DNA from: Ceratodon purpureus
Taxonomy: Eukaryota; Streptophyta; Bryopsida; Pseudoditrichales; Ditrichaceae
Length of the DNA: 64,000 nt
Reading direction: 5' to 3'
Assembly: GCA_014871385.1 (NCBI GenBank)
Contig: CM026431.1
Span: forward strand, 10,255,729-10,319,728
Under the pieces are notes generated by a model. That model saw only the letters and a list, made by a program, of their open reading frames with translations. It did no database searches and had not been told where the DNA came from. The position numbers and the translations under genes were made by a program. Below, one piece after another: positions 2,743 to 63,560 of this stretch; position 1 is the first letter of the stretch; each line of letters begins with the position of its first letter.

Positions 2743-4878
2743 ATGGAAGAGGGCATTCGAAGGAATCCACCGGGGGAGGCTCGCATCCTGTCTCGGAGAG
2801 CGAAATTACTCAGGCGGGAGTTGGCGTACGCGAGGCGGATGAGTTGGACGAAACTGCCATGTCCATGTCAAATCCACATGCGGGAGGCGGAACTCACTCT
2901 CGACTCATACCGGAGATGCCTGAGGGATAATGGAAGGCATGTGTGGTTCTATGGAAGGACAGAGGTATGTCTCATATTTTCCTTCGTGTGTTGATGTGGT
3001 GCTCATATGTAAGATTAACCACGACAACTCAGGAACTCGAATTCTGAAAATTCACTTAGAGCCTTCACCTTCCATGCACAGTAGAAGAACACAATACCGA
3101 TTGGTTGATGCTATGAATTGGGATATCGCATGTCATGAAGCACCTCCTGCCTAACAGTCGAAGATGTTCTGTTGTACCAGGGATACGAGGACGACGACTC
3201 CGACGTCGAGTGGGAGGACCACATTACGTGGTACTATGGAGCGCAGGCGAGAATGCGTCCAAACGCACTACGGCGGAGGGATTTAGACCCGGGGATTGAT
3301 GTGACGCAGATGGTAGTCGAAGCTCATGATATCGTGGACAGAATTCATGAAGAGGTGATGGTGGACCAGGTTCATGCTGGAGAGCATCCGAGAGGAGATC
3401 CGCACCAACAGAGATTTCCGAATGGAGTCAGCGACGACTTAGGGCAGGAGAACAGAGCATCACCCGTAGGAGCAGGTCGGGGTGGGGGGATTCCTAGTCC
3501 GGAGAGAAGCAGTGACTCGGCAATCCCCTTACGCGAGGAAGGTAATGCAGCAGGTGAAGACGGCCGTGACATCTCCGATGCACCGTCAGTCGACGTTTCT
3601 GATGATAGCTCTGGAGACGAGGGGGCGCACCAGTGGGAGACTCTGACGACGAGACAGACGCTTCCATCGCGGCCCTAGAGGAGGCAGCGACTACTCCCTT
3701 GTTCCCAGGATCAGAATACTCTAGCATGGGAACGACGTATGTGCTTCTAAGTAGTGGAAAGCTGCACGGCTGTTCCGACGTCTACCTGGATGAGCTATTC
3801 CGGACCTTAAGCACTACCATTCTTCCTAAGCCGAATACCTTACCCAAGACTTACAGAGAGGCATCCGAGTACTTGAGGAAGTTGGGCCACACTTACAAGT
3901 CAATCGACTCCTGCCCCAACAATTGTTGCCTGTATCGGAAGGACCTGAAGGACGCTCGTGTTTGTCCACATTGCAGGGCTCCGAGAAAAAGAAGAGCAGG
4001 GAGATCAGAAGTGCCGTTCAAGGTTACGAGGGCCTTCCCTCTTACTCCGCGACTCAAACGGATGTTTCGAAGTGCTCTTCAGGCAGCTGCAATGACATGG
4101 TGGGCGACCCTCGCAGTCACGGACGGTGTGATGTCTCATGTCTCTCACTCAGCGCAATGGAAGTGGATCTCGGAGAGATTTCATGCAGAGTTTGGCCATG
4201 ACGATAGAAACGTGCGAATGGCTCTTGTTACAGATGGATTCAACCCCCACGCAGACAAGAGGAGTACTTACTCTATATGGCCTATTCTCCTCATGAACTA
4301 CAACATTGCACCGTGGCTTACGACGAAGAATTATTTTATTATGTTGGGGATCCTAATCCCGGGTCCTAAATCCGTAACAGCTGATTACTTCGATATCTAT
4401 ATGGAGCCACTGATTGAAGAACTCTTACATCTTTGGGAAGAAGGGGTGTACTGCATGGATGTCGCCCGTTATAAGGAGTCGTCTCATTTCATATGAAGGC
4501 GATGATCATCTGGACAATTGGCGACTTCCCAGCCTACGGCGTTTTAGCTGGTTGCACAACCAATGGGTTCGTTGGCTGCCCAGTGTGCGGGGAGGGCTTT
4601 AGATCACGGCGTTCTAAGGTTTTACACAAGAACGTCTTCTGTGGATGTGCCCGCAGGTTCCTTGTTAGGGCAGACCATCCCTTCAGGGGCGACAGTTCAA
4701 ACTTCATAGATGAGGAGCACCGAGTGGCCCCTACTCCCGTTACCGGAAGTGAGCATTGCAGAGGGGAGAGGAGCGTGTCAGGTGGCTTAGAGAGTATGGA
4801 AGACCGAAGGAAATGACCCCGTCAGAAGGCACGGCATCAAGCGAGTTTCCTCACTATATAGGCTTCCTTACTGGAAGG
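2743..4878 (+). pseudogene. CACTA transposase, zinc-finger-like N-terminus and TNP2 domain, frame-disrupted
   Basis: The first exon (2743-2964, donor GTATGT) has the transposase-associated pattern: a CPCQ-type cysteine pair, a helix, then VWFYGRTE. After an acidic, variable stretch (from ~3172), TNP2 follows: ALEEAATTPLFPG near 3675, then CPNNCCLYR with a CPHC knuckle near 3910-3980. The core near 4080-4440 has VTDGFNPH, the family's aspartate-containing motif, then SIWPILLMNYN and LLHLWEEGV; next come TIGDFPAYG and CPVCGEGF, and LPYWK just before a donor at 4879. The family cuts and rejoins CACTA transposon ends in the nucleus. The frame change near 3633 can be explained by a short intron (3554-3633), but changes near 4490, 4755 and 4857 have no plausible intron. 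The copy is therefore probably inactive, unless these are assembly indels. Confidence 0.75.
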
Positions 4879-5390
4879 TAAGAGTGCCACTGAGCGCCCC
4901 TGATCCTTGTTTACAGTCTGCACATGTTGTCTTCGACGTCTCGATATTGTGTGGCTCCAGTGGCTTCATGTCATGATCACTTGGGACTCTATGTCTAGAC
5001 GTCGGGGTGATGTAGCTGTCTTAACATATGTCATTGAAGTTTAGCCCAGCCTTTTTTTTCGGTGTCGATAAACTTGCTGGTGAATGGGGTTCGAACTACC
5101 AGGCTCTGTCCACCGGGACTTCTAACCATTCATTTAGCGTATGTTGTTCTCTTAGATAGCGTATAATGACTGCTGGAATTGGATTATATGATCATGCTGT
5201 TCGACGACATGAATTGCACATGTCGATGCTCACCTGCGCATGATCTGGTACTGTGTGACCAGATGAATATGTAGCAGACTATGTTTCTCGGTGCAATGGT
5301 CAGTCGTGCTTGCTGATCCCCCATTCTTATATTTTCAGCTGAAGTCTCACAACTTTCTTCATGGTGCTGTGAATAGGAACTTCCAGTTAG
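4879..5390 (+). other. Probable intron of the transposase
   Basis: A good donor (GTAAGA after LPYWK) opens at 4879 and an acceptor (CCAGTTAG) precedes the DVMHVEKN coding stretch near 5391. No other coding sequence is recognised between them. A GTTCGAAC box-B-like string near 5088 was considered as tRNA and rejected. Confidence 0.5.
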
Positions 5391-6280
5391 GCACACACTC
5401 GACGTCATGCATGTGGAAAAGAATATAGCGGTTACAATTACTGGATTTTTTACTCGGTGAAGAAGACACGATAGCCGTGCGAAAGGACCTACAGGATCAA
5501 GGGGTCATGCCTAGTCTGCATCTTGTGCGGGATGAGTTAACCGATAGCTACCTGATGCCGCAGGCACCCTACGTTCTTAGCCCCGGTGAGAAACGACGAG
5601 TCCTACAGACGATCAAGAATGTTCAAACACCGACTGGTCACTGTTCGAACTTGTCGAAGGTAGTTAACTTGGATAAAGGGAAGTTCCAGTTCATGAAAAG
5701 CCACGACTGGCATGTTGTTCTAGAGGAGGTGTTACCTGCCGCCTTGAGAGGGTCGCTCGCAGATGGACCTCGGGTAGCTGTTATTCGACTAGGGCACTGC
5801 TTCAAGAAGATTTGCGAGAAACAAGTAACCGTGAGTGAGCTCCCGAACTTATTGAACTACATTGCCGAAACTTGCTCTCTGCTGGAGATATACTTCCCAC
5901 TGGCGTATTGGAATATAATGCCCCATCTCGTACTTCACTTGCCAAGGGAGCTTTACTGGTGCGGGCCCGTTCATGCCCGCTGGATGTATAGCGTGGAAAG
6001 GTACCTTAGGTCACTTGAAGAGCCTCGTGCGTAATAAGGCCAGACCCGAAGGATCCATTGCCCAGGGTTATATGTATACGGAAGCCATCGGATTCGTCAC
6101 AGAGCATTTCCAAATGTATCCAGGAGTTGCGAGACTACTCTGGGACATGGAAGAAGACGAACAGGACGCAGGGGAGGTGATGGAGGGGCAGGGTCGTGAG
6201 CAATTCTGGGACGACATTGAATTGAAGAAACTTCACGAACATGTTTTGCGTCACTGCGTCCACACGGAGGACCTCTATAG
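5391..6280 (+). pseudogene. CACTA transposase, DUF4218 part, two frameshifts
   Basis: The segment starts with the conserved link between TNP2 and DUF4218 (HTLDVMHVEKN). It continues with RKDLQDQG, then LSPGEKRRV, FLKSHDWHV-type sequence (FMKSHDWHVVLEEVLP), LNYIAETCSLLE and FPLAYWNIMPHLVLHLP, all typical of DUF4218 in plant CACTA transposases. A run of six T at 5447-5452 shifts the frame by one base. A second one-base shift lies at about 6003, just after MYSVERYL; the family sequence GHLKSLVRNKARPEGS continues in the next frame. A donor GTATGC at 6281 probably ends the exon. The function of DUF4218 is not established. Confidence 0.75.
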
Positions 6281-11880: not shown

Positions 11881-13109
11881 TTTGTGGGAGGGTTGCAGTG
11901 ACGTCCTTGCTTTCAAATTGTGTTTGACACGTCCTACACTCGTCTATTCTCTAGCCATATTGCACCGGAGCTCGATTCTCCGGCAGTTGCATCAGGCAAT
12001 ACTTCGAGACTCCCGAACATGTCGGTAAGCTTCACGTTGAGCCCCTTTCTAAACAGTAGTTTTTTGTGAGCTTGCGAGGGAATATTCAATTGGAGTAGTC
12101 CCGACAGCAAGTGGTCTTCTGGAGCCTGGTGAAACTTGCTACGATCGGATCTACCCTATCGAGGTCATATATTCCTGGTCTGATTGCAATCGTCAAGTAT
12201 TGGTGGTAATCTATCCCAGTGAAATTGCAAATTTGTTCCTAGTCATTTCGGAACATGATCATTCAATGAGCTGTTGGGGCTGCAAGGTTTTCGTCATTTT
12301 ACTTCTTCTGCACATCTTGGTTTTCGTCATCTTGGGTTCAACTCTGTCGAAGGCACCATTTCTCGGTTGTTGATGGTGTGGAGGGTAAGCTGTTCAGAGT
12401 TGAAAAAGTCCAAGCCCGTGCCATGTCTGAAGGAAGGACGTAGTTTCCTATTCGTAGCAGCAAAAACCGGTGCATAGCCGAACTCTGCAAGCACAGGTAG
12501 GCGTCCACATGTAGGTGACTGCTCAGATGTTTCTGTGACTTGTGGTATTTTGTACTCGAACCACCCATTAACATTTAGGCAAGTGATTTCTGTACTCAAA
12601 CCACAGGATTTCTGTAATTTTCTTCGCTTAGTATTAAGCAAACACTCGGAAGTAACATAGCTATATTTAAGAGCAAGCTCATAGGATGAAGATTGCTGTG
12701 AGGCATGTTGTTAAGAGACTGTGGAGGTAATCTGAGAATAGAGCATGTTTGTGGGTGCTTTGTTGCTAAGGAGTAGGCTTTGTTCATCAGGTGGCAGAGT
12801 GCAGCCACTGGTTTCCGTGATGGAGTCTGGAGTGTCGACTTCTTGTGAAGCAGATGAGACAATTGGGGGCGATATCACTGTAATACAAAGGTTCGTGCTC
12901 CAGATCGAACAGATTGATGAAGAATTGGATGTGTATTCTGGACTAGCCCAACTGCAACATAGTATTGGAGCAGCACAAATGGACTATGCAAATTTTCAGC
13001 TTTCCATTTGAGCATTTTACATGAAAGTAACTTTGTCATGAATTTGTTCACATTCAATCCACTCCAAGCTCATTCCATTTCAAATTGTGAGTGTCTTAGT
13101 GATGGTGTG
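11881..13109 (+). promoter_or_regulatory. Conserved upstream/leader region of array gene 1
   Basis: This stretch is clearly similar to 40,831-41,998, at the same position upstream of the second intact receptor gene, and so probably contains promoter and 5' leader. Matching landmarks include TGGGAGGGTTGCAGTGACG at both left ends, a shared block around GGTTGTTGATGGTGTGGA, and a block around the codons MES-VSTS-EADET. The latter could be coding (12,821 onward is open here), but the equivalent frame in the second gene has a stop, so I treat it as leader or an upstream frame. No TATA box can be assigned with confidence. Confidence 0.45.
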
Positions 13110-16100
13110 ATGTTGGAAGCGAAGCACAAGGTGTTCCTTAGCCATAGTGGGGCACAGAAAGACTTCGTCGAGCAACTATGTCTTGATATAGAAAGATGTG
13201 ACCGACATCCTTTCTTCGACAAACGACGGAGCAGCCTACCCATTGGTGAGAAGTTTCCTCCACTCATATTTGATGCTATTCGACAATGCAATGCTGGTGT
13301 ATTGGTTCTATCCAAGGAGTTCTTCACAAAGACCAAGTGGCCCATGTTGGAGTTGGTGGCCATGGTGAGGGAGTTGAAGAGCCCCAACTCAAGATTGAAA
13401 CTCATCCCAGTGTTCTACAAACTTTCTCGAGAGGAGTGGTTGGATGATGAAAACCGCTTAGAGTGGATTGCACAATGGAAGGAATGGGCAAGTGTGGATG
13501 AGAGGATATGCATTGAAGAGTGGAAGAAGGCTTTGGATGCGTTGAAGTCCATCAATAGTTTGATGATGAGGGATGGAGAGGTACAACTTCGGAAGGAGAT
13601 TGTGGATGCGGTATGTAAGTTAGTCCTTTCGGAGACTAGGTGGGATGATTCACATGTCCAAGGACGTTCACGCATGTGTGAAGTAAGTAAATATCTCAAC
13701 AAATGTTCCATAAATATTGAACTTTACGGCTCATGTAATTGTTGTATTAGGATTGACATCAATATTGGTATGCCAAGGTCATCTTTTATAATATATGATG
13801 GTTCATGTTGTTGAGATACTTCTTAAGGCATAAAGACTTGCATGTAATTTACACAAAATTAAAATTTTGTTGCGCATGGTGGCAGATTTTGCTTCAAAAG
13901 ATTAATGAGCGGGAGAAACGCAATGGAATCCAAGTGATGGGCTTGTACGGAATTGGGGGCATTGGAAAGACTACAATGTGTAAGGCCATGTGCAATGAGG
14001 TGTTTGAAAGATTTGGAGGGCGAGTGTGTCATGTTGAGTTGAATACGACAAGTGAAATTGAGATTCTCCAAAATGTATTGAAAAGGCTTTCGACCATTGA
14101 ACACGAGCATGTGGGAGGACTAAACATTGATGAGGTGTGAGATGTTCGGCTATTTACCTCATATGCATTTAGTTTCAAACATTATAAAGTCCATCTCAAT
14201 ATTATTTTTAAAAAAGAATTATGTATATTTTCTTTAGTAATACACTCTCATGTTTAAAATGTCTAATCTATTCTTTCTAAGATTGCAATGTTGGATATTC
14301 TTTTAATTGGATTACACAATAATTAGATTGTATCAAGAGCGTGAATACTAGTTTTCATTACTTTGAGGAATAGTTTCAGACTTTATTTCAATGTACTAGA
14401 CTTGAGAAACTGTTATAGTACTATTACACTTCTTTTGAGTCTAAAACTACATAGTATAAAATACCACATTGATTCTAGAAATCAATGAAGTAATATGTAA
14501 GTGATGTTGAGTACAAGTATTAATCGATAAGATAAATCTAAATAAAACATAAATGATGTTAAGTATCAATAATATTGTGTTAAATAGATCTATAATGGTT
14601 GGCCAAAATGTAACTGTCGGTGGCATGGCATTGTATGAAATCGATTCACAAGAGGATCATTCTTAATGGACTTGTCAAAAGAAAAGAAATTAAAATTTAT
14701 AACATAAGTACTTCCCCTTGACTTTGTGGGCAATCACATCAATGTAATTTGCGACCTCCATTGAGTAACCATACTTGTTTCTTTGAGGATCTTGTGTAAA
14801 TCATTGCATTGTTTTTGAGTATGCAGTGTCGAGACAAACTGAGGAGATGCGTTGTGAAGCAACCCGTGTTCCTGGCTATTGATAATCTTCTCGACAACCC
14901 AGAGGCCAAAAAGCAAGCCAAGACTCTTCTTGGAACCCAGTGGACTGCAGGAAGTGTTGTGATTGTAACCACACGTGCTCATGGAGAGCTCACCAATCTC
15001 AACCAATACATTCGAAGTGAAGATTGTGTAGAAATGCCAGAATTGACGGAAGTCGAAGCGAGGTGTTTGTTTTTGAACCATGTCACATGTGGCCAAGGTG
15101 CTACAATTGCTATGTTGGACAAAAGGCTTGTAGGTCGTTGTGTGCAGCGGTGTCATTTTGGTAAAGGTGAAGGGTTGGGATGTCACTACATTCCTTTGGC
15201 GCTTGAGGTACTTGGTGAGCAGCTTGGCTGCAATGGCTATGATGCGGAGCTGTGGGAAATGCAGTTGAAGAACATCGACGTTTTCAGGGAGAAGCTAACA
15301 AAAGACGAGCACCCTATCTTCTCCATCTTGAGGACAAGCTACGATAGTTTGTCTGAAGATGTTCAGATGTTGTTCATGGATACCGCTGTTTTTCTACCTT
15401 CGCACCCCTTTCTCCCCACGGATATGTACAAGTGGAACTTATTTGACTGGCTGAGCACGGTGCATGGAACAAGTGTGGACGAGGTGATGAAACAGGTGAG
15501 GGTTTGGCTGCTATCTACCTGGTGTGGCCAAAAATTGTAACTAGAGGAATCTCTCTATTTTGTAGGCCTCAATGTCTTACACGGGGTTCGAAGGATCAAT
15601 TTTCGGTTTCCTGCATTCACATTGCAAAGTTATTGCTTGTGAAACTCTCCCAGCTTTGTGCTGAATCGGTAGAGCAGTTACATGTGACATACGGTGATGC
15701 TGAGATGGACTTGTGCTGGTGTGCAGTTGGAGTATCTGAAGCGGAGATCGCTGCTTGAGTCATTGGGCGATGGACGGACCAGAATGGTGATGCATGATCT
15801 GTGGCGCGAGTTTTGTGTGGCGGAAGCGGCGATTGGAAAGTTCGAAGATGGTCGGTGCTTATTTGTGGAAGAGGAGAGCAGCAAGCTTGCGGAGACCAGC
15901 CCAGGTCCCGGTGGTTGTTGGAGAAACATGAGGAGGATGGGCTTTTCAAACGAGGGATGGAGATGTTTGGATGGAGTAGAGGTGGATCAGTTTGTGAATC
16001 TGTTGTTGCTGAAGGTGGAGAGTGGATCATTTTCGCTTGGCGGGTCGTTGGAACTGGATGTGAAGGGACTGAGGCACTTGAAGAGCTTGGAACTGACGCC

Positions 16101-19100
16101 GGGAATATTGAATCGTGTCAATTGTGTGGGACTTGAATCCTTGAGCAAGCTTACTTATTTGAGGTGGGATAATTACTACACCCTAGCACCAGATGTTGAA
16201 GAGATCGGGAGTCTAAGAAAGCTCCAGGTTCTTATCCTGGGAGGTTTCAAAGGTGACAAGCTACCAGATTTGAGCATGCTGACGTCATTGCGACTGGTTT
16301 CTTTCCAAGGCTGTTCAACAGTGAAGACCATAAGTGGCCTAGGCTCGAAGCTGACCAACATCGAGTTCTTAAGTCTACGAGCTTGCTACAGTTTGCAACA
16401 GTGCCCTGGTGTGGGTGACTTGTATGCCTTGGTGGAGCTTGACTTAGCTTTTTGTGGGCAGCTGAAGGATGTGCCCTGTCTACGGATGCTGACAAGATTG
16501 AGGAAACTGGTCATCGAAGGTTGCCAGTTATTGAGAGCAGTGCCGGGACTGAGCGACCTCGTCGCTTTGGAAGAGCTTTGGGCCTCGGGTTGCACTGCTC
16601 TTGAAGTGTTGCCTGATCTGCGGAAGCTCTCAAAGCTGAGAATGCTGAAATGTGTAGGGTGCAGTGCCTTGAAGAGATGGACCTGCACTACACCCTTGCG
16701 TGCAGTGGAACAGATCGACCTCCGTGATTGCAGTAGTCTGGAAGAAATGCCGGATTTGAGTACCTTTCCCCAGTTGGAATGGCTTTATCTGGGCGGTTGC
16801 ACAGGCTTGATGACCTTGACCAGTAGCGCACCCTTGCGTGCACTGTTGGAGCTTGATTTGGAAGGATGCAGCAAGTTGAGTTCCCTGCCAGATCATCTGA
16901 GTGGGTCGGTGGATCTGGAACAGCTCCGTCTGCAGAAGAGCGGAATAGTGTTGCATGAAGATGAGATCACGGAACTGAAGGCATGTTGTAGAAGGCTTGA
17001 GGTGTTTCCCAGCTCTGCTCGATCCGTGTATGGCGGTTTAGAATCCTTGTGTTCATCAGCTTATGGTTCGAGCAATAGGGAGATGGATGTGGATGACCTC
17101 GAAGTTAGCAACGCGCAGAATGGATGTCGATCTAGAAGGTTACCAGACACTTTACCCCGAGAGAAGGTGCTATATCATATCCTTATATATGACATTCATG
17201 TTAATTACGTGCATCAGCAGTCGAAAGTTGCGAATTGTTTCGCAGGGAGATGTCCTGGATTTCCCTCTGAATGAATTTCTTGATGTGAGACGACTATGTA
17301 AGCGCAGGAACTTGGCAGTTGGATGTTGTTTTAGGCTATTGCACAATTATTGTTTCTCGGATAGTATGGAAACCTGGATGAACTCTCTCTGTTTGTTTGT
17401 ATTTTTTGGCAACTTTGTAGGGTGCAATTGGGTTGTTTAGTGAATGTGGTTTTTCTGGTGGGCACAGATTGCAAGACTCATGTACACCAGGGCTGGAGGT
17501 GCCCTTTTGGCGCTGACATCGACTGGGATACTCAAAGTTTGGAACTGGGGACGGGTATTTAATGACCCGGAATGCCAGGTAACCTTCTGTGCACTTGGTA
17601 TCATGATAAAGTGTCACTGAATGTTTGTAATCTGGTAAGGTCTTTCGTAACCCTCTAAACTTGATTCTATGATTTTGTTTTAATGAGAAGCAAGGGGATC
17701 TTGGCAGGTGTGACAATGATGATGGTATGAATGTAGGTAACATGATGCCATTTTTATCTCTTTATAAGGTCAGAATCTCTCTGATTATATTCATGGTCTT
17801 TTGGTGATTCTAGCATTGTGTATGGAGTTGTGAAATCAATGAGACTTGAGAAAATTTTAAACTCTTTTTTCATCTTAATTTTGATTTTCTACATGATAAT
17901 TGTGGGGTATGTAGGGCTCCAAAGTAGAGTGTGCTAGAGATTTGAACATATTGCTATTGTAAGATGTTATGTAAATTGCTATGCTAGGGTTCTACAAGTG
18001 GACTTCAATTAGTGGTATTGTACACTTTTTGTGACATTTAACGAAAAGAATCAATGGTCATGGATGTGATTTTGAGGATGTGGTTTTTGAGTTGAACTAA
18101 AGTTTATGTGATTTGAGGCTTTTAAATGGGCTATGTTTTATAGTCTTGCGTAATCTTGAGCATAGATATCTTGAAGGTATAAGTCTATTCAAATTAAAGA
18201 TCATTGAAGAAGGTGAATGAAGGTATAAATGTGAAATATATAATTAGCTCAAAGTGTGAATTAAGATGTTGGTGATGGTATTTCTTATGCTCATGAGTAA
18301 TAGATTTTTTGTATTTTACAAAGCTAGTACTGGTCCAATTTATAGTACTTGTGGAAGTTTTATCTATATTCATCTAAATCTATGAGGATTTATATATTGA
18401 TTTTCTAAATATATTAGTGACCAATCCTTTCTTCCAAATAAATTTTCCTAGGCCATTGTAAGTATTGCTCCACAATTATGGCTACATGCAAGTGGAAGGT
18501 TGATGGTCAACGATATAAATGACGTCAATTGGGAAGAAGTGGTGCATTCTTTGACTCTTAGCTACGATGGCTATAGTGCAATATCAGCCTCGGGAGGAAA
18601 GGTTTTTCGGTATGATATCCGCACTAGCGAGGTATAGTATCCTCACGCATTTTAATAGAATAGTTGGTAGTGTGAGAATTTTATAATTATGTTGTAATAC
18701 TCTATTCTGATAATTATTTTCCATCATCTCTAAATCTTGAAAATATTCATGGTGTAAACACATTTTGATCAAGTTTAATCCACATATGCTTTAAAAACGC
18801 CTAGATTGCTAGAGTTGTTAAATTAAAAACTTCAAAGCTAACATTGTTTTGTCATAAAGGCTTTAGATTATAAATTATCTAGCTACAATATTAGTGAGTT
18901 AACAGTTTGAGAAGATATCTATCTATATAGATATACGACACCCTAGCCTTTCTCTCATCACTGGATTCAAATTTGAACTTGAAATTATGTGGTTATTGAT
19001 GACATTTGCTGTGTAAATGATGCAAATTTGGATTTAGAGGGTGTTTACAATTATGTATCCACCTCCAACACCAACATCTATTGCATACTATCCCCATGAC

Positions 19101-20800
19101 AACAATATTGTGGCCATAGGAATGGCGGATTCAACAATTCAAATCTTAAATACAATCGAGCAAGTGGTTAGTAATCGTGACATGGCCCCATTTGTGATTC
19201 AATGTAACTTCTACATGAATCTTCCACATTGTTATTCTTGGCTAGGTTGAGGACACCGATGTGCAACTAGCGTGACTCTCGCATGCTCTTTGCAGGTGGT
19301 GTGCACATTGGCTGGCCATCACGACAAAGTCATTGGGTTGGCATTCTCCATTCCCGACAATTCTACAAGTGTACTTGTATCCTTAAGTGCAGATGCTCAG
19401 GTACTGTAAACAACCCTTTCACCGCCCTTCAATCAAGGATGCAAACTCAAGCTTCTCAACAACTTTTGTGAGAGAGTGATCGAGAATCCAATGTTGTAGC
19501 TACATAGCAAAGAAATCATTCAAATATATTCGGTTGAAACCATAGCTGCATTTGAAGCAGCCGGGACTCAATTACACTAATGTTGGCATTATTGTTTTTG
19601 TGTTTGCAAAGGAGGAAGTAGGGTTTCTTCATACTATAGTAGCTAAATTGATAAAGTGGAGTAAGTCACAAGTTGTTTCCACATCCTGGTGTGATGTTGT
19701 AAGCAATCTCTTCCAAAAGCTAAATTGTTCTAAGACATCCCCTACTGCAGTTGTGCGTATGGAAAACAGAGGAGTGGGGCAAACGTCAGTCGAGGTTTGG
19801 GTTATTACAACCGGATCAGAGGACAGTGTGTGCAGGGGACCTTCGCGTTCAATTCCACAACGACCAACGCCACGTTCTTGTTGTGGGGAAGTCGCAGTTG
19901 GCTGTGTACGACACTTTGAATGTGGATCGTCCTATTACCGAGGTCAGCTCCTTTGAACACTGATGATCTGTATGCCGTACAAAGTCTTTTAGTCCAGGTA
20001 GACCAGGGTTGCTCTGAAATAAATGATTCTGATGGTTGAGAATGAAGTCTGGAGTAGCAGATGTCCACACATGGTATCTTGTGCAGATTTCTAGTGGCAG
20101 TTTTGAGAAGGATGGTCTCAAACTGCTGGAGCATCTTGCAGATTTGAATTTTTGAATGTAGCACGTTTCCTAAGATTGAGAGTATCGTGGTGGGGGTTGT
20201 GCAGTGGGTTCCTCAAAGTCCATTCACGGCAGCAATTACAGACGCCACCTACTCATGTACTGGCCATCGTGTTTTTGTGGGCTTTGCCGATGGTTCTGTC
20301 GCTTATCTTGATTCTAAATTTCGGCCACGGCGTCGATTGGTCCCTCCGATTCACCCACCTCTGGGAGCGAGCGGGTATGGAATCGTGACTGGATCTATGA
20401 GCATTCGCTGAACCCAATTTATTGTTGGCATCTATGAGTATGATGATTGGTGTGAGCTTGTGAGTTGCATTGCATCCTGTTCCTCAACGGCACGGAATGA
20501 GGGCTTCAATCTTGGAATGGTTTCTTACTTTCTAGTCTCTCTGTTATCGAAGGAATAGGTTACAGACTACAGACTGGCTGCAAAGCACTCATGACATGGT
20601 GATTGATGTTGTGTGGTAGATCAACAGCCTACCCCGTGGCGATTGCTGCACATCCTAAGATTCGATGTCAGTTTGCACTGGGCATGAGCGATGGGAGCGT
20701 AATAGTGGTAGAGCTTCGGAGGGCCCCAGCAGACAAGGAACCAGGAAGTGGGGAAGGGAGTCACAAGAGGAAAGCGAACTGTTTGGAGGTCTGTGAGTGA
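13110..20800 (+). CDS. TIR-NB-ARC-LRR immune receptor fused to a TOPLESS-type WD40 domain (array gene 1)
   Basis: Eleven exons: 13110-13682, 13886-14134, 14827-15495, 15727-17166, 17468-17578, 18452-18631, 19038-19166, 19296-19400, 19751-19942, 20205-20374 and 20620-20800. All phases match, giving about 1,332 residues. Residues 1-165 are a TIR domain (KVFLSHSG; the expected catalytic glutamate, E81, in WPMLELV), so NADase activity is plausible. NB-ARC follows: P-loop GIGGIGKTT (213-221), kinase-2 VFLAIDN (N replaces the usual second D), GSVVIVTTR, IPLALEVLG, and MHD at 519-521. About a dozen LRRs of the C-x-x-L type run from ~580 to 930. From residue ~964 the protein is TOPLESS-like: CRSRRLPD, IARLMYT, SGRLMVNDIND, ISASGGKV, PHDNNIVAIGMADSTIQI, LRVQFHNDQ, ALGMSDGSVIVVE. 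The start ATG opens MLEAKHKVFLSH. It probably acts as an intracellular immune sensor. The NH2-terminal LisH/CTLH part of TOPLESS is absent. Confidence 0.85.
14135..14826 (+). other. Long intron 2 of array gene 1
   Basis: This intron (about 690 bases) separates the P-loop exon from the kinase-2 exon. It is AT-rich with no exon-like content. The equivalent intron in gene 2 (43,022-43,407) is only about 386 bases, so it differs by insertion or deletion although the flanking exons are the same length. Confidence 0.7.
17125..20800 (+). other. Integrated TOPLESS/TPR C-terminal WD40 propeller within array gene 1
   Basis: The end of exon 4 (about 17,125-17,166) encodes CRSRRLPDTLPREK, which lines up with the CRSLRLP-type segment preceding the second propeller of TOPLESS-related proteins. 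Exons 5-11 then follow that propeller in order to its last blade (AIAAHP...ALGMSDGSVIVVE). Only the second propeller is present; the EAR-binding N-terminal half and first propeller are missing. Introns are retained between blades, so capture was by genomic DNA and not by a reverse-transcribed copy. The TOPLESS comparison is from memory of the family, not from an alignment program. Confidence 0.85.
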
Positions 20801-22805
20801 GCAGGACAAGATGGGCTTTGTTGTGGGCGGGAGTATGTGAGTTCGTTTTGTAATTGGGATCTTTTTTTTTTTGATGTGAGGAAATTGAACTGGTGTCAAG
20901 GAGGCTCTGTGTTGCCATACAAGTTTTGTGGACTCTTTCAGCTTTGTAAAATGTTAGCAAGTATTGGGCATTGCATGGGCATAGTCTACACAAGGCACCT
21001 TGACACATTCACCAAGTAGGAAGTGGCACAAGAATGATGTGAATTTGTGGTGATCACATGCTAAATTGAACAACCACTTGGAAAACTTGTTATAATTTGC
21101 AGTTTGGCATTGAACAACCACTTGGAAAACTTGCTATAATCTGCAGTTTGGAAGCAATTTTTACTTGGCAGTGAATTGGTCAATGCTCCTTGTGATATTG
21201 GAAAACATCAACGGGTTTTCATGATTTTAGAGTATCAAGGTATTTTAAAGATGATGAAGGATGATTTTGGAGTTGAAAGTTTTATGATCTGAGATTATGT
21301 TTTAGTACTTCAACTCAAGTTTGCCAAACTATTGAAGTTCTCATAGCATATAGAATACACCATTCGGGACCCCATCCCAATGCATGTCACTCATGCGTAT
21401 ATATGAGTCACCTTGAATGTGTTGGTTATGAACATTTGAGGGGTGAGGGTCATGAATAGCGCTTGTGACCCCTAATAGCAATTCTTGATATCAACAGATG
21501 ATGTTCTTCTTCCAATGTAGGAGTCGGAATTTGGAGTCTAAGTTTGGTCCACATTGTTTTCGATAAGATTATTTCAAGTGTAGGTGATTGAGATTTATAT
21601 CTCTCATTTTTATTTACATTTTTTTGTACTTAAAATTAATGATATTTTTAAAATGGAAAAAAATATGGGATTTTTATAGGCTAATTTAGTGTATTTATTG
21701 CATTTGTTAAAATTTTAGGAATTGGATTATGGAAAAAATGGCTAGCGCTTATATTAAAATGAGATGTTGGTTATCTCTAAAAAAATTTAGTAGTGTGATT
21801 CTTTAGTGTACATCTAAAATATTATACAATATTATTATACCTCTATGCAATATTAAAATACTTCAATGCAATATTTGAACATATTCAAATCTATCTATTC
21901 CACTAATAAAAGCACAAAGAATGATTTATAAGTAATCTTAAAGCAAAACATTACATAATTTTTGTAATATAACCAATCAATAATGAAAGTGGGCACATCA
22001 AATTTTAGAATTTTATAATTCCACTTTTCAATAATAGTGTTAAATATCATAACAATGTAGGTGGTTTGAGTTCTTCTAAATCATGAATAATTTTTTTTTG
22101 AAAATATAGGATTTTTTCCACAACAACTGAATTTATTAATTTCTGTCTTTTCAAAAAACCTAATAAAATAAGCTTCAAATAACTTCAAATTAACAAATAT
22201 CACTAAAAGAAATTTTTCCTATTTTTCCTTATTTATCCTTAGAATTTCCCATTCTTTGGGCTATTGATTTAGGACTATGTTTGAACAAACCATCTACTAT
22301 GGTAACAACTGTCATTCAAATTTTTAAAATTACAATTTGATTGTTGTATTCTTTGTGCTTATGACCTGTATTGATATTGTAAATTCTCTCAGCAAACTAT
22401 GAAATAATGTTTTAAATGTTTAGAAACTAGTTCGATTTTTCAACAATTCTTTTATATTTCGAGCTAGAATATATCTTCAAGAAATGGAGTTTTTGAAATT
22501 TGATTCTTTTATTTATTCTTTGATTCTAGGAAGGGGACAAGCGTTATAAAAGGAATCCAATGGTTTTCAGGTTTGTGAGTGAGTATTGTTTATTTTAATA
22601 TATCACATACAATACGTCAAGCCTTTCCAAAGCATAAATATCATTACGGTGAACGAAATTCACTATGTTTTATTTGAAGATTTGCCCCCAATAGTTAATT
22701 ATTTTTAGTAGTTATATTTAATCATAATAGTGTATTTTGAAATTCATTTTATTTTGATTATATTCCTCATCTAATTTCACTGATGATACTCATGTTAGAA
22801 ATGGT
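20801..22805. repeat. 3' flank and AT-rich spacer of gene 1, truncated at 22,805
   Basis: The 3' untranslated and spacer sequence continues the near-identical block shared with 49,464-51,468. It belongs to the same spacer family as 26,815-33,337 and 34,351-39,770. At 22,805 it stops abruptly at GTTAGAAATGG, whereas the paralogous spacer at 51,468 carries on; the next ~15 bases lead straight into an LRR/TOPLESS exon fragment. No gene is seen here. Confidence 0.8.
21065..21152 (+). repeat. 44-bp tandem duplication
   Basis: Two copies of a 44-base unit beginning ATTGAACAACCACTTGGAAA stand head to tail with a few mismatches (TTGTTATAATTTGC versus TTGCTATAATCTGC). The same pair is present at about 49,728-49,815, so it predates the recent segment exchange. 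Confidence 0.85.
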
Positions 22806-22817
22806 TCAGACGAAATC

Positions 22818-25234
22818 ATAGAAGGCTGGAGGTGTTTCCCAGCTCTGCTCGATCCGTGTATGGCGGTTTGGAATCCTCGTGTTTGTCAGCTTATGGTTCG
22901 AGCAATAGGGAGATGGAAGTGGACGATTTTGAAGTTATCAATGCGCAGAATGGATGTCGATCTAGAAGATTACCAGACACTTTACCCCGAGAGAAGGTGC
23001 CATATCATTTCCTGATATATTACATTCATGTGGAGTACGTCGAGCATGAGCAGTCGAGACTGGCGAGAGGTTTCGCTTGGAGAAATTTCCTAGATTTTCT
23101 TGTTAATAAATTAATTTTTTCTTGATGTGAGAGGACTGTGTTGTTGGTGTAATCGCATGCGTGGCATCCCGAGGAACTTGGCAGCTGCAGGTTGTTTTAG
23201 GTTATTGCACAATTAGTGTTGCTCGGATAATACGGAAACCGTTGGATGCACTCTTTGTGTGTGTTTGTCTTCTTGGGCAACTTTGTAGGTTTGAAACATG
23301 CGAGGTTTGTTGTGGGACGTTTTATAGTGAATGTGGTTTCCTGGTGGGCACAGATTGCAAGACTTGTGTACACCAGGGCTGGAGGTGCCCTTTTGGCGCT
23401 GACATCGACTGGGATACTCAAACTCTGGAACTGGGGACGGATATTTGATGACCCGGGATGGCAGGTAACCTTCTGTGCACTCGGTATGATAAAGTGTCAC
23501 CGAATGTTTGTAATTTGGTAAGGTGTTTGTAATCTGGTAAAGTGTTTGTAACCCTCCAAACTTGATTCTATGATTTGTTTTCATGAGATGGAAGGGGATC
23601 TTGGCAGGTGTGACAATGATGATGGTATGAATGTAGGTAACATGATGCCATTTGTATCTCTTTATAAGGTCAGAATCTCTGTGATTATATTCATGGTCTT
23701 TTGGTGATTCTAGCATTGTGTATGGAGTTGTGAAATCAATGAGACTTGAGAAATTTTTAAACTCTTTTTTCATCTTAATTTTGATTTTCTACATGATAAT
23801 TGTAGGGTATGTAGGGCTCCAAAGTGGAGTGTGCTAGAGATTTTAACATATTGCTATTGTAAGATGTTATGTAATATGCTATGCTACGGTTCTACAAGTG
23901 GACTTCAATTAGTGGTATTGTACACTTTTTGTGACATTTAATGGAAAGAATCAATGGTCATGGATGTGATTTTGAGGATGTGGTTTCTGATTGAACTAAG
24001 GTTTATATGATTTGAGGCTTTTAAATGGCCTATGTTTTATAGTCTTACGTAATCTTGAGCATAGATATCTTGAAGGTATAAGTTTATTCAAACTAAAAAT
24101 CATTGAAGAAGGTGAATGAAGGTATAAATGTGAAATATATAATTAGCTCAAAGTATGAATTAAGATGTTGGTGAAGGTATTTCTTATGCTCATGAGTAAC
24201 AGATTTTTTGTAGTTTACAAAGCTAGTAATGGTCCAATTTATATAGTACTTGTGGAAGTTTTATCTATATTCATCTAAATCTATGAGGATTTATATATTG
24301 ATTTTCTAAATATATTAGTAACCAATCCTTTCTTCCAAATAAATTTTCCTAGGCCACTGTAAGTATTGCTCCACAATTATGGCTACATGCAAGTGGAAGG
24401 TTGATGGTCAACAATATGAATGACGTCAATCGCAAAGAAGTGGTGCATTCTTTGGCACTAAGCAAAGATGGATATAGTGCGATATCAGCCTCGGGAGGAG
24501 AGGTTTATCGGTATGATATCCGCACTAGCGAGGTATAGTATCCTCACGCATTTTAATAGAATAGTTGATAGTATGAGAATTTTATAATTATGTGGTAATA
24601 TTCTATTATGATAAGTATTTTCAATCATCTCTAAATCTCGAAAATATTCAGAGTGTAAACACATTTTGATCAAGTTTGATCCATATTTTCTAATGTATAT
24701 TTGCTTAAAAAACACCTAAATTGCTAAAGTGGTTAAATGAAAAACCTCAAAGCTAACATTGTTTTGTCATAAAGGCTTTAGATTATAAATTATCTATGTA
24801 CAATATTAGTGAGTTGATAGCTTGAGAAGATATCTATCTATATAGATACACGACACCCAACCCTTTTTCTCATCACAGGATTCAAATTTGAACTTGAAAT
24901 TATGTGGTTATTGACAACATTTGTTGTGTAAATGATGCAAATTTGGATTCAGACGTTGTATACAATTATGTGTCCACCTCCAACACCAACATCTATTGCA
25001 TTCTATCCCCATGACAACAATATTGTGGCCATAGGAATGGCAGATTCAACAATTCAAATCTTAAATACAATCGAGCAAGTGGTTAGTAATCGTGACATGG
25101 CCCCATTTGTGATTCAATGTAACTTCTACATGAATCTTCCACATTGTTATTCTTGGCTAGGTTGAGGACACCGATGTGCAACTAGCGTGACTCTCGCATG
25201 CTCTTTGCAGGTGGTGTGCACATTGGCTGGCCAT
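22818..25234 (+). repeat. Segmental duplication B, partner at 45,566-47,982
   Basis: The end of exon 4 through the start of exon 8, introns included, matches gene 2 at a constant offset of 22,748. In my line-by-line check I saw only isolated single-base differences (for example near 23,198 and 23,765). The match ends at 25,235 (CAGGAC here, CACGAC in gene 2), where gene 2 switches to the gene 1 sequence. Confidence 0.9.
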
Positions 25235-26814
25235 CAGGACAAAGTCATTGGGTTGGCATTCTCAAGAAATTCCGCCAATTCTACAAGTGTACTTGTATCC
25301 TTAAGTGCAGACGCTCAGGTGCTGTAAACATGCCTTTCACCACCCTTCAATCAAGGATGCAAACTCAAGCTTCTTGACTAAACTTTTATGAGAGAGTGAT
25401 CTAGAATCCAATGTTGTAGCTACTTATGTAGCAAAGATATCATTTAAATATATTCAGTTAAAACCATAGCTGCATTTGAAGCAGCCCGGACTCAATTACA
25501 CTAATGTTGGCATTATTGTTTTTGTGCTTTGAAAGGAGGAAGGAGTGTTTCTGCATATTGCACTAGCTTTGATTTGGAGTTTTTCACAAGTTTTTTCCAC
25601 ATCCTCGTGGGATGTTGACATCAGCAATCTCTTCCAAAAGCTTTGTTCTAAGACATCCCCTACTGCAGTTGTGTGTGTGGAAAACAGAGAAGTGGGCCAA
25701 ACGTCAGTCGAGGCTTGGGTTATTACAACCGGATCAGACAACAGCGTGCGCGGGGGATCTTCGCGTTCAATTCCACAACAACCAACGGCACGTTCTTGTT
25801 GTTGGGAAGTCGCAGTTGGCTGTGTACGACACTTTGAATGTTGATCGTCCTCTTATCGAGGTCAGCTCCTTTGAACACTGATGATCTGTATGCCGTACAA
25901 AGTCTTTAAGTCCAGGTAGACCAGGGTTGCTCTGAAACAAATGATTCTGATGGTTGAGGATGAAGTCTGGAGTAGCAGATGCCCACACATTGTATCTTGT
26001 GCAGATTTCTAGTGGCAGTTTTGAGAATGATGGTGTCAAATTGCTGGAGCATCTTGCAGAGTTGTATTATTAAACTAGGCACGATTGCTAAGGATGACAG
26101 TAATATTGTGGTGGGATTTGTACAGTGGGTTCCTCAAAGTCCATTCACGACAGCAATCACAGACGCCACCTTCTCATGTACCGGCCAGGAGATTTATGTG
26201 GGCTTTGCCGATGGTTCTGTCGCTGAAGTTGATCCTCAATTTAGGCAATGGGGTCGATTTGTCCCACCGATTCATCCACCTCTGGGAGCAAGCGGGTATG
26301 CAATCGTGACGGGATCTATGAACGTTCGCTGAACCCAATTCATTGTTGGCATCTACGAGTATGATTATTAGTGTGAGCTTGAGAGTTGCATTGCATCGTG
26401 TTCATGAACCCACACTCATCGAAGAAACGGCAGTAAAATCTGGGATTCAACCTTGGACTGGTTTCTAGTCTCTCTTGAAGGCAAGGAATAGGTCACAGAT
26501 TATAGACTGGCTGCCAAGTACTCTTGATGACATGGTGCTTGATGTTGTGTTGTAGATCAACAGCCTACCCCGTGGCGATTGCTGCACATCCTAGTATTGC
26601 AGGTCAGTTTGCACTGGGCATGAGCGATGGGAGCGTGATAGTGGTGGAGCCTTGGACGGCCCCAGCAGACAACGAACCAGGAAGTGGGGATGGGAGTACT
26701 CACGATGTGAGGACACCGAACCGGAACCAAGACGGCTCGGTGTTGCCATACAAGTTTGTGGACTCATTTAGCTTTGTAAAATGTGAGCAAGCATTGGGCA
26801 TTGCAAGGCCGTGA
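22823..26814 (+). pseudogene. 5'-truncated TNL-TOPLESS copy (WD40 part only)
   Basis: This copy lacks TIR, NB-ARC and almost all LRRs. It starts inside exon 4 (22,823-22,996, from VFPSSARSVYGG) and retains exons 23354-23464, 24353-24532, 24953-25081, 25211-25318, 25669-25860, 26126-26295 and 26556-26814, with open frames and matching phases. It could therefore still encode a free TOPLESS-like propeller if transcribed, but no promoter or proper start is visible upstream. Exon 8 is one codon longer than in the intact genes (SRNSANSTS). The last exon has a longer tail (GDGSTHDVRTPNRNQ) than genes 1 and 2. It probably arose by a deletion that fused the preceding spacer to exon 4. Confidence 0.8.
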
Positions 26815-27194
26815 CCCACAGTCTGTCTGACAGTCTGGGGTTCATTACCCACGCTAACGGCTCTCGTATATGAAATAACATAGTTTGCAATATTTTAGAA
26901 CAGATAAATGGGTTTTTATGATTCTAGAGTATTTAAGGTATTTTGAAGATGATGAGAGATAATTTTGGAGTTGAAAGTTTTATGATGTGAGATTAAGTTT
27001 AGCATTTCAACTGAAGTGTGCCAAACTATTGAAATTTTGATAGCGTTTCTTGATATCAAAAGATGATGTTCTTCTAATGTAGGAAGAGGAATTTGGAGTC
27101 TAAGTTTGGTCGACTTTGTCGTCAACAAGTCTATTTCAAGTGGAGGTGGTTGAGATTTCTATATCTCACTTTTCTTTTCTTTTTTTTTTGTATT

Positions 27195-32704: not shown

Positions 32705-33337
32705 TAGCTTTTTTACAATTTTTCTAAAACTATTACAATACTTTCAAATTTTCACCAAAAGTTGTGAAAGTATCCTGACACACAATCAACACACACTTTC
32801 ATCAATCAAAACCATAGCATAGAAATCTCATACAACTCCAATCCAAACATTTGGATATGAATGTGAAGCGCAAATCCATAGTACTAGAAGCTAGATCCGT
32901 TGCAGGGCGAAACCAATGCCCAACGATGTTTGGAAAGTTTCGGAGATCATTTAGCTATTATCCTCTTTTCCTAAAATCATTTGGTAATTATGTATGATAC
33001 TTGAATGATACTTAGGTGATACCAATGTGATATCTATATAAGATTTAGTTTTGAACCAAAACAAAATCGTAAACCTCTAAAATCAAATCGATAATTTGGC
33101 AATTTCGTTCCGCAAGGCTTTCAACTACCTGCCAAATCTCCCCAATCATTGGTGCCCAACATCTCCACGGAGCCAAGTTTCAAAATCAGCACCATTCCAT
33201 AGCAACATCCCATGATTCACGATGTCCAAAATCTACATCTCCCATACATTTCTATCTCATCGTGAAACTCACAGCACACGAGCCATTACAAATGTCGGAG
33301 AAAGCATTTCATAGCGATTGTGCACAATTACAATTCG

Positions 33338-34350
33338 ACAGCGTGCGCGGGGGACCTTCGCGTTCAATTCCACAACGACCAACGCCACGTTCTTGTTGTG
33401 GGGAAGACGCAGTTGGCTGTCTACGACACTTTGAATGTGGATCGTCCTGTTACCGAGGTCAGCTCCTTTGAACACTGATTTGTATGCCCTACGAAGTATT
33501 TTAGTCCAGGTAGACTAGGGTTGCTCTGAAACAACTGATTTAAATGGTTCAGTATGAAGTGACCTGGAGTATCTTGTGTAGATTTACAGTGGCAGTTTTG
33601 AGAATGATGGTGTCAAATTGCTGGAGCATCTTGCAGAGTTGTATGATTAAACTAGGCACGATTGCTAAGGATGACAGGATTGTGGTGGGGTTTGTGCAGT
33701 GGGTTCCTCAAAGTCCATTCACCGCAGCAATTACAGACGCCACCTACTCATGTTACGGCCAGGATGTTTACGTCGGCTTCGCCGATGGTTCTGTCACTTA
33801 TGTCGATGCTCAATTTAAGCAATGGGGTCGATTAGTCCCACCGATTCACCCACCTCTGGGAGCGAGCGGGTATGGAATCGTGACCGGATCTATGAACATT
33901 CGCTGAACCCAATTCATTGTTCGCATCTACGATTATGATGATTGGTGTGAGCTTGAGAGTTGCATTGCATTGTAGTTCATCAACCTACACTGATCATCGA
34001 AGAATCGGCAGTAAAATCTGGGCTTCAACCTTGGACTGGTTTCTGGACTCTCTTGAAGGCAAGGAATAGGTCACAGACTCCAGACTGGCTGCAAAGCACT
34101 CATGACATGGTGATTGTTGTGTTGTAGATCAACAGCCTACCCAGTGGCGATTGCTGCACATCCTTGGAATAGAGGTCAGTTTGCAATGGGCATGAGCGAC
34201 GGGAGCGTGATAGTAGTGGAGCCATGGGAGGCCCCAGCAGACAATGAACCAGGAAGTGGGGAAGGGAGTTCTCGCGATGTGAGGGGACCGAACCGGAACC
34301 AAGGAGGCTCTACCAAGTTTTGTGGACTCTTTCAGCTTTGTAAAATGTGA
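33338..34350 (+). pseudogene. Severely truncated TOPLESS-WD40 copy (last three exons)
   Basis: The copy begins in the middle of exon 9 at about 33,338 (ACAGCGTGCGCGGGGGACC) and keeps the rest of that exon to 33,457, exon 10 (33,700-33,869, WVPQSPFTAAITDATYSC) and exon 11 (34,128-34,350, AYPVAIAAHP and FAMGMSDGSVIVVEPW), with intact splice sites. Everything upstream is missing, and the join is directly to spacer sequence. Its last exon has the DVRGPNRNQ tail seen in the 22.8-kb copy, so it belongs to that sublineage. It is a relic; expression is unlikely. Confidence 0.85.
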
Positions 34351-35631
34351 GCAAGCATTGGGCATTGCAAGGGCATAGTACATTGGAACACATCACTGGG
34401 TTTTCATGATTTTAGAGTGTCGAGGTATTTTTAAAATGATGAGGGATAATTTAATTTGGAGTTGAAAGTTTAATGATGTCAGATTATGTTTTAGCATTTC
34501 AATTCTAGTTTGCCAAACTATTGAAATTTTCATAGCATTTCTTGATATCAAAAGACGATGTTCTTCCAATCTATGAGGAATTTGGAATTTCAGTTTAGTC
34601 CACATTGACTTCAATAGGTCTATTTCAAAAGTAGGTGCTTGAGGTTTTTATATTTTACTGCCACTTACAATTTTTGTACATAAAAGTAATGATGTTTTTA
34701 AGATGGAAAAAAGTATGGGACTATCATAAGTTAATTTAGTGTACTCACAGTATTTATTTACTTTTTAGTAAATGGATTTTAGAAAAAAATAACTAAAAGG
34801 TTTTTGTATTCTATTTAGAATCATGGTCTTTTTAGCATTTAAATGATTGCTTACCAGTTCATATTAAGTTAAATTGTTGCTTCATTTTTAACCAAATTTT
34901 GAAGTGTGGCTTTCTAGTGTACTTTAAAAAAAATAATACTAATCAATACTACAACACATGTGTACAATATTCAAACGGATGCAAATTTATTTATTCCGAT
35001 AATGAAAAACAAAAAATAAATTTCTTTGTATATGAGAGTGATCTGAACATCGAACAATATGTAATTGTTTGGCAAATAAATGAGCATTAATGAAAGTTGG
35101 CTTATAAATTTAAAAAATTCAAATTCTATTTTTCAAAGAAAAGCTTAATTATCAAAATTAGGTAGGTGGTTTGAGCTCTTCAAAATCATGAATAAATCCA
35201 TTTCAAAAAACAGTTGATTTTTTTTTAAAAAAAACTCTGCATTTATTGATTTTTTTGTTTTCAAAAAAATAATAAAGACATTTGCTATTTGATTTCTGTA
35301 TTCCTAATGCGTATGACCAGTATTGATTTCGTGAATTCTCTGTACAAACAATAAAATAATGTGTTAAATGTATAGAAACAACTCCCGTTTTCCAACAAAA
35401 CATCATTATTTTGAGCTATAAAACATCTTCAATAAATGCCATTTTTTAAATTTGCTCATAGTTTTTATTTGTTCTTTGATTCAAGGAAGTGGACAACCTT
35501 TTTAAATGGTATCTAAAGGATTACAGGTTTGTGAGTGAGCTGGTGCAGACGAACCACGGTCTCTGTTGTTTATTTTAACATTTTACATACATACATTACC
35601 TCAAGCCTTCGCAAAGCATAAACACCATTTT

Positions 35632-54313: not shown

Positions 54314-63560
<9,247 letters not shown>

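Follow-up and report, generated by a model that had tools for sequence, protein, structure and literature searches.

Why should an immune receptor carry part of a transcriptional corepressor? The question is raised by a gene on the forward strand of a 64,000-nucleotide stretch of moss DNA (the window; all coordinates are counted from its first letter), in which a TIR-NB-ARC-LRR receptor (TNL), one of the nucleotide-binding leucine-rich repeat receptors (NLRs), continues in one spliced frame into the second WD40 propeller (WD40-2) of a TOPLESS protein. We consider this propeller to be probably an integrated bait for TOPLESS-targeting effectors and not a built-in repressor. The gene, referred to as copy 1, comprises 12 coding exons between positions 12820 and 20800, with 4080 nt of coding sequence and 3901 bp of introns, and specifies a 1359-amino-acid product. 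This product is identical over 1041 amino acids to the published model KC19_10G116300 (P0047), which identifies the window as Ceratodon purpureus; the placement of the KC19 models on chromosome 10 was taken from their gene numbers. Every internal splice site is GT-AG and the frame contains no internal stop, bearing out the exons and frame proposed in a first-pass annotation of this DNA. Its start of the gene at 13110 needed revision, as the first coding exon at 12820 to 12890 (MESGVSTSCEADETIGGDITVIQ-) had been missed. This exon is also present in KC19_10G116300, whose start lies even further upstream.

The Pfam matches follow the order TIR, NB-ARC, LRR, and WD40-type propeller. Exon 2 (13100 to 13682) encodes an N-terminal TIR domain at approximately 13131 to 13484 (TIR_2, 2.8e-13, residues 8 to 125 of a 1332-amino-acid query; TIR, 1.1e-9). 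The NB-ARC domain (3.4e-13) begins in exon 3 (13886 to 14134), which includes the sequence GIGGIGKTT, presumably the P-loop, and extends through exon 4 (14827 to 15495) to approximately 15345. Exon 5 (15727 to 17166) contains VMHDL, which we take to be the MHD motif, then the LRRs at approximately 16255 to 16932 (LRR_4, 1.4e-12; LRR_R13L1-DRL21, 3.8e-12), a linker, and the first TOPLESS-derived residues. The propeller continues in exons 6 to 12 (17468 to 17578, 18452 to 18631, 19038 to 19166, 19296 to 19400, 19751 to 19942, 20205 to 20374, and 20620 to 20800), with the end of the stop codon at 20800. A WPMLE motif was also found in the TIR-receptor product, and we assume its glutamate to be the putative catalytic NADase residue. 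A host domain that does not belong to NLRs thus lies within the open reading frame of the receptor, and the Pfam order together with the TOPLESS alignment confirmed the earlier claim of a TNL running in one frame into a TOPLESS propeller.

The assignment of the propeller rests on its homologues and a phylogenetic tree, because no TOPLESS-propeller family was present among the Pfam matches shown (25 of 32 families, to which all Pfam negatives given here refer). When the last 369 amino acids of copy 1 were used as a query, 43 proteins were retrieved. The top two were short Ceratodon models with 83 to 84% identity, while the other 41 matched at 33 to 51% identity over 50 to 95% of the query; six of the 43 are named TOPLESS, TPR, or REL2 by a source, and one, P0019, carries the source label apoptotic protease-activating factor 1. 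Copy 1 aligned with residues 782 to 1119 of a 1153-amino-acid Sphagnum TOPLESS at 51% identity, corresponding to the second propeller only. Since the alignment begins at residue 782, the TOPLESS N-terminal domain and the first propeller are absent from copy 1, and no match to LisH, CTLH, or CRA was found among the Pfam families shown. Copy 1 therefore has the second propeller alone and not the two propellers of a TOPLESS/TPR corepressor. The Pfam propellers of other WD40 families scored below their curated cutoffs, mostly far below, with the sole exception of PF23383 (28.1 versus 27 bits), so that, save for this match, the profile search proposed earlier as a check gave no assignment to another WD40 family. 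In a PDB sequence search, designed WRAP proteins matched in several overlapping stretches at 80 to 108 bits, whereas the next best entry, 6r60_A, scored 53 bits; the pairwise score with Sphagnum TOPLESS, from a separate comparison, was 335 bits. On these scores, derivation from another WD40 family is rejected.

A structural model of the Sphagnum TOPLESS WD40-2 (P0004) contains 28 predicted strands, all 28 of which have an aligned counterpart in copy 1, and this model resembles solved WD40 propellers (TM-score by target of 0.88 to 5yzv_B). P0002, a headless relative that lacks the first propeller exon, was likewise modeled as a propeller, with a mean predicted local distance difference test score (pLDDT) of 78 and matches that include the seven-bladed designed protein 7bif_A. 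The last blade of the P0004 model has three C-terminal strands, with the first strand of the model, residues 110 to 114, as the presumed fourth. In copy 1, the counterpart of this strand, residues 991 to 995, is specified by the 3' end of the LRR exon, within the junction CRSRRLPDTLPREK (17125 to 17166, forward strand), which comprises the TOPLESS linker and the predicted propeller-closing strand as judged by alignment to P0167 and P0004. In this model the LRR exon itself would supply the strand that closes the propeller, so that the two domains are joined inside one exon. The fusion stands as first proposed, but its boundary has to be moved into the LRR exon, where positions 17125 to 17166 already align with Sphagnum TOPLESS.

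Receptors fused to this propeller are not confined to the window. The propeller of P0052, a protein encoded on a separate contig, was used as a query and returned 43 proteins, at least five of them with an NB-ARC domain: P0051, P0052, P0165 and P0179 from Miscanthus, and P0166 from Rhododendron. The Miscanthus proteins have an Rx-type N terminus and the Rhododendron protein has RPS2-type LRRs, and the TOPLESS part matched in these fusions was again the second propeller. P0165 and P0166 contain two propellers apiece. In P0165, the receptor tail (EAEAALEH..VHPKHPTLL, positions 938 and 1351) is repeated ahead of the second propeller, so that the repeat unit comprised both receptor tail and propeller.

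We placed these propellers in a tree of 32 proteins chosen from three protein searches, plus copy 1 (35 rows, 10 of them fused). NLR-fused propellers occupied three places in the tree, namely, the moss TNLs, the Miscanthus coiled-coil NLRs (CNLs), and the Rhododendron CNL; on the starred branches, no fewer than three changes are needed to explain the fusions. A single gain plus two losses would also amount to three changes, as the tree tool notes; we read the changes as probably three separate gains, because the receptors differ in kind. By the approximately unbiased (AU) test, with groups named after the first tree was seen, a single clade of all 10 fused propellers was rejected (P = 4.7e-5), as were a moss-plus-Miscanthus clade (P = 2e-6) and a Miscanthus-plus-Rhododendron clade (P = 4.9e-59). 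The moss fusions have long branches in this tree, which is rooted at its midpoint, so that their descent from moss TOPLESS is only a possibility. The nearest tree relative of the Miscanthus receptor propellers is P0034 (Miscanthus, 360 amino acids), a propeller-only TPR2-like protein that could be donor or derivative. We regard it as an evenly balanced proposition that TOPLESS WD40-2 is a recurrent receptor bait which at least three NLR lineages captured separately, two of them in tandem; if true, TOPLESS WD40-2 would stand out as a direct target of effectors across plants, from mosses through to angiosperms.

What is known of TOPLESS gives the captured piece its significance. Excerpts of published work, the form in which all papers are cited here, describe TOPLESS as an effector hub, report that the fungal effector Jsi1 binds WD40-2 of maize TPL1 (PMC8126959), and map the repression domains of TOPLESS to LisH helix 1 and CRA helix 8, both N-terminal (PMC8203292); excerpts of PMC12787737, PMC9153377, PMC12886408, and the preprint PMC13251949 were further sources. 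The integrated domain thus resembles a known effector target, both by its identity as WD40-2 and by Jsi1 binding of the maize counterpart. The first-pass annotation had offered an integrated decoy or a direct route to transcriptional repression; of these, the decoy is best supported, because the captured piece is the WD40-2 bound by Jsi1 and fused propellers occur in three places of the tree, while the repression route is not supported, LisH and CRA being absent. The receptor has acquired a docking surface but not the mapped repression domains, which suits a bait better than an output arm, although the propeller could still have a recruiting role. In the mechanism we envisage, effectors that dock on TOPLESS WD40-2, for example via a DLNxxP motif, would bind the propeller copy on the receptor; binding would release the NB-ARC switch, after which the TIR domain would signal. 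The existence of such effectors in moss pathogens, their binding by the receptor, and the resulting activation of TIR signaling are our inferences.

Support for the fusion outside the window came from a whole-protein search, which reaches relatives sharing short exact words. Among the best 120 of 220 matches, at least five proteins combined NB-ARC and propeller: P0045 (copy 2 of the window itself), P0046, P0048, P0051, and P0052, with P0048 beginning inside the TIR domain and lacking most of it. P0046, P0048, and P0051 bear the gene prefix M758, as opposed to KC19 for copies 1 and 2, and P0051 is numbered on chromosome 5. Evidence independent of the window copies is therefore provided by M758_10G116000, M758_10G162600, M758_5G068900, and the contig protein P0052. 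The last is a 1449-amino-acid open reading frame (4350 nt) on a 4889-bp contig; since only about 540 nt remain beside the reading frame, compared with introns totaling 3901 bp in copy 1, its source is most likely a spliced transcript. These cases reject a chance gene-model fusion for the family, although not for every published copy. Further fusions may exist, because the search covered the best 120 of 220 matches and the P0052-propeller search missed P0045, P0046, and P0048.

The window itself holds three more copies, all on the forward strand. Copy 2 (41708 to 49463) is a full TNL-TOPLESS propeller gene whose spliced product is identical over 1331 amino acids, from position 41999, to KC19_10G116800 (P0045); its exons lie at 41708 to 41778, 41989 to 42571, 42773 to 43021, 43408 to 44076, 44308 to 45744, 46102 to 46212, 47101 to 47280, 47701 to 47829, 47959 to 48063, 48414 to 48605, 48868 to 49037, and 49283 to 49463. 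Copy 3 (22819 to 26815) is headless, without TIR and NB-ARC, and consists of the end of an LRR exon (22819 to 22996) and propeller exons in an open frame. Copy 4 (33337 to 34387) retains only the last propeller exons (33337 to 33457, 33700 to 33869, and 34128 onward, with a stop within the last) and likewise lacks TIR and NB-ARC. The propeller exons are open in all four copies, as far as present. Several blocks of 66 to 87% repeated DNA among the regions at 27 to 33 kb, 34 to 40 kb, and 50 to 52 kb point to growth of the cluster by duplication.

We then considered the pace at which receptor and propeller have changed. Between copies 1 and 2, the Nei-Gojobori ratio of nonsynonymous to synonymous divergence (dN/dS) was 0.19 for TIR, 0.23 for NB, 0.31 for the LRR exon, and 0.85 over the propeller's first three exons; for copy 1, it was 0.65 versus copy 3 over the last four exons and 0.45 versus copy 4. 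The ratio of changes differed between NLR part and propeller (Fisher P = 0.019 for copies 1 and 2 and 0.0009 with copy 3, on rounded counts). At the protein level, the propeller and the LRRs have changed at about equal pace. Copy 1 and P0048 share 87.6% identity in NB-ARC, 77.7% in the LRRs, and 70.6% in the propeller; the values are 88.8, 82.7, and 84.4% for copy 1 and P0046 and 81.0, 76.3, and 75.1% for P0051 and P0052. Between the chromosome 10 models and P0051 or P0052, the architecture is kept at 46 to 51% propeller identity. Among 19 TOPLESS rows, 6 of the 25 nonfused rows having been dropped as divergent or short, 93 columns are invariant. Of these, the moss fusions keep 65 to 70 of 90 to 93, the Rhododendron fusion 83 of 92 to 93, and the Miscanthus fusions 90 to 92 of 93, and 53 of the 93 persist in each of the five moss fusions compared. 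To judge from these alignments, the moss propeller pattern would fit an arms race or partial relaxation alike.

Several observations weigh against the propeller as a bait for effectors of WD40-2. Excerpts of the literature place other effectors elsewhere on TOPLESS: SIX8 binds WD40-1 (PMC10754003), the Tips and Tip6 bind the N terminus, and HaRxL21 acts through an LxLxL EAR motif, and virulence is described as unchanged after jsi1 deletion. The high dN/dS of the first propeller stretch is mainly a result of its low dS (0.08 versus 0.15 to 0.24, with dN of 0.070 versus 0.044 to 0.054), it also fits relaxed constraint, and the part of the signal from copy 3 may be relaxed because that copy is headless. 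In all five moss fusions, 12 TOPLESS-invariant residues are lost or deleted. Copies 1 and 2 are more alike in the propeller (93.9%) than in the LRRs (89.3%) or NB-ARC (87.6%), a similarity raised by a shared tract: positions 19128 to 22611 of copy 1 and 47791 to 51274 of copy 2 are identical over 3484 bp. As copy 2 also differs from copy 3 at just 2 of 2418 positions (45567 to 47984 versus 22819 to 25236), its propeller is a mosaic of copy 3-like and then copy 1-like sequence, the result of either recent exchange or misassembly. The earlier argument from two intact copies against a chance fusion is consequently weak, and it is the other proteins that give independent evidence. The Rhododendron and Miscanthus fusions are protein models, and that from Rhododendron, a single protein, could be a mis-joined gene model. 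Finally, the published models P0047 (copy 1 itself), P0049, and P0050, which bear KC19 and M758 gene prefixes, end in VTFCALG(I)MIKCH and thus terminate within the intron that follows the first propeller exon.

Some of these points would be explained if the fusion were passive or degenerating, that is, if duplication had put a TOPLESS fragment behind a TNL that carried it without a selected role. The headless and partial copies, the raised propeller dN/dS, and the exchange within the cluster all agree with this explanation. It nevertheless seems unlikely to us, as the propeller exons are open in the four window copies, the 28 strands have aligned counterparts, 53 invariant columns persist in the five moss fusions, the architecture endures at 46 to 51% propeller identity, and fusions occupy three places in the tree. 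The truncated models raise another explanation, in which a short TNL ending in the intron is the main product and the full fusion is minor, alternative, or in some copies a model artifact. In copy 1 the intron spans 17579 to 18451 (forward strand), and read-through into it, VTFCALGIMIKCH-stop, yields the end of KC19_10G116300. Propeller-only published models, KC19_10G119800 and KC19_10G120100, point in the same direction, although the latter and its numerical neighbor KC19_10G120200 may be one split gene. Against this stand the full-length P0045, P0046, P0048, and P0051 and the contig reading frame of P0052, the read-through of the same intron in copies 2 and 3, which runs five codons beyond that of copy 1 before a stop, and the closing strand in the LRR exon. 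A short receptor isoform is possible on the gene models, but we consider this explanation of the fusion as a whole to be decidedly improbable.

The remaining two explanations give the propeller host partners. As a signaling arm, it would recruit the transcription-factor or chromatin partners of TOPLESS, and the active receptor would repress negative regulators of defense, as in the SNC1-TPR1 case. Excerpts of the literature describe binding of TPR1 and TPR2 to the TIR domain of the TNL SNC1 (PMC7935258) and of TOPLESS propellers to RLFGV and DLN motifs of regulators, with possible contacts to other repressive machinery (PMC8203292). However, the repression domains in LisH helix 1 and CRA helix 8 are both absent here, and the propeller is also fused to Rx-type and RPS2-type NLRs, so that we judge a signaling arm to be improbable. 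It is less probable still, and in our view very remote, that the propeller competes with TOPLESS for partners as a sponge, or holds the receptor inactive through a partner, without meeting effectors. Maize TPL1 is described as needing WD40-2 to bind the DLNxxP-bearing ZmERF4 in yeast (PMC8126959), yet the branches of the fusions are longer than those of TOPLESS, which is unexpected for a binder of conserved host partners. An integrated bait thus remains the reading we prefer.

Outside the receptor cluster, remains of a Transposase_21 (tnp2) element with DUF4218 lie upstream at 3609 to 6031. A charged, low-complexity open frame of 717 amino acids on the reverse strand (54317 to 56467) had no Pfam match at 0.01. 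What the self-comparison showed as an inverted repeat at 62635 to 62759 is a run of TA units about 110 bp long (62643 to 62753).

NLRs with integrated domains (NLR-IDs) are already known, and the probable repeated capture of a TOPLESS propeller is the unexpected part. We take AT1G15750 to be TOPLESS. In excerpts of the NLR-ID survey by Sarris in 2016 (PMC4759884), WD40 appears among the integrated domains of six angiosperms, and HARXL21, AT1G15750, and WD40 share one row of the effector-target table. Copy 1 resembles these NLR-IDs in having an extra host-derived domain in the receptor open frame, but that WD40 row covers angiosperms and the word "topless" is absent from the main text, whereas here the domain is TOPLESS WD40-2, the carrier is a moss TNL, and the capture is probably repeated. 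An expansion of NLR-IDs has been described in Ceratodon and Sphagnum (PMC11218826), in a main text that mentions neither "topless" nor "wd40" and whose supplementary list may include the copy 1 gene. Red-algal TIR-NBARC-WD40 proteins of Chondrus crispus (PMC9806590) likewise combine TIR, NB-ARC, and WD40 in one protein; as described there, they are named without LRRs, which sets them apart from copy 1 with its LRRs and TOPLESS-derived propeller. Compared with TOPLESS/TPR corepressors, copy 1 shares the C-terminal propeller, at 51% identity to that of Sphagnum, but lacks LisH, CTLH, CRA, and the first propeller. Arabidopsis SNC1-TPR1 is also a case of a TNL working with a TOPLESS protein, although, in the excerpted account (PMC7935258), the two are separate proteins in contact through the TIR domain, unlike the fused WD40-2 alone of copy 1. 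Among the titles, abstract openings, and passages of the literature on NLRs with TOPLESS or WD40, supplements not included, no NLR-TOPLESS fusion was found.

If WD40-2 was captured repeatedly, plants must frequently, and for a long time, have faced effectors directed at this surface. The propeller would then be a ready bait for finding such effectors, those of moss pathogens included. The fusion would also separate two ideas that are commonly mixed, a TNL that uses TOPLESS as its output and a receptor that carries TOPLESS as its input.

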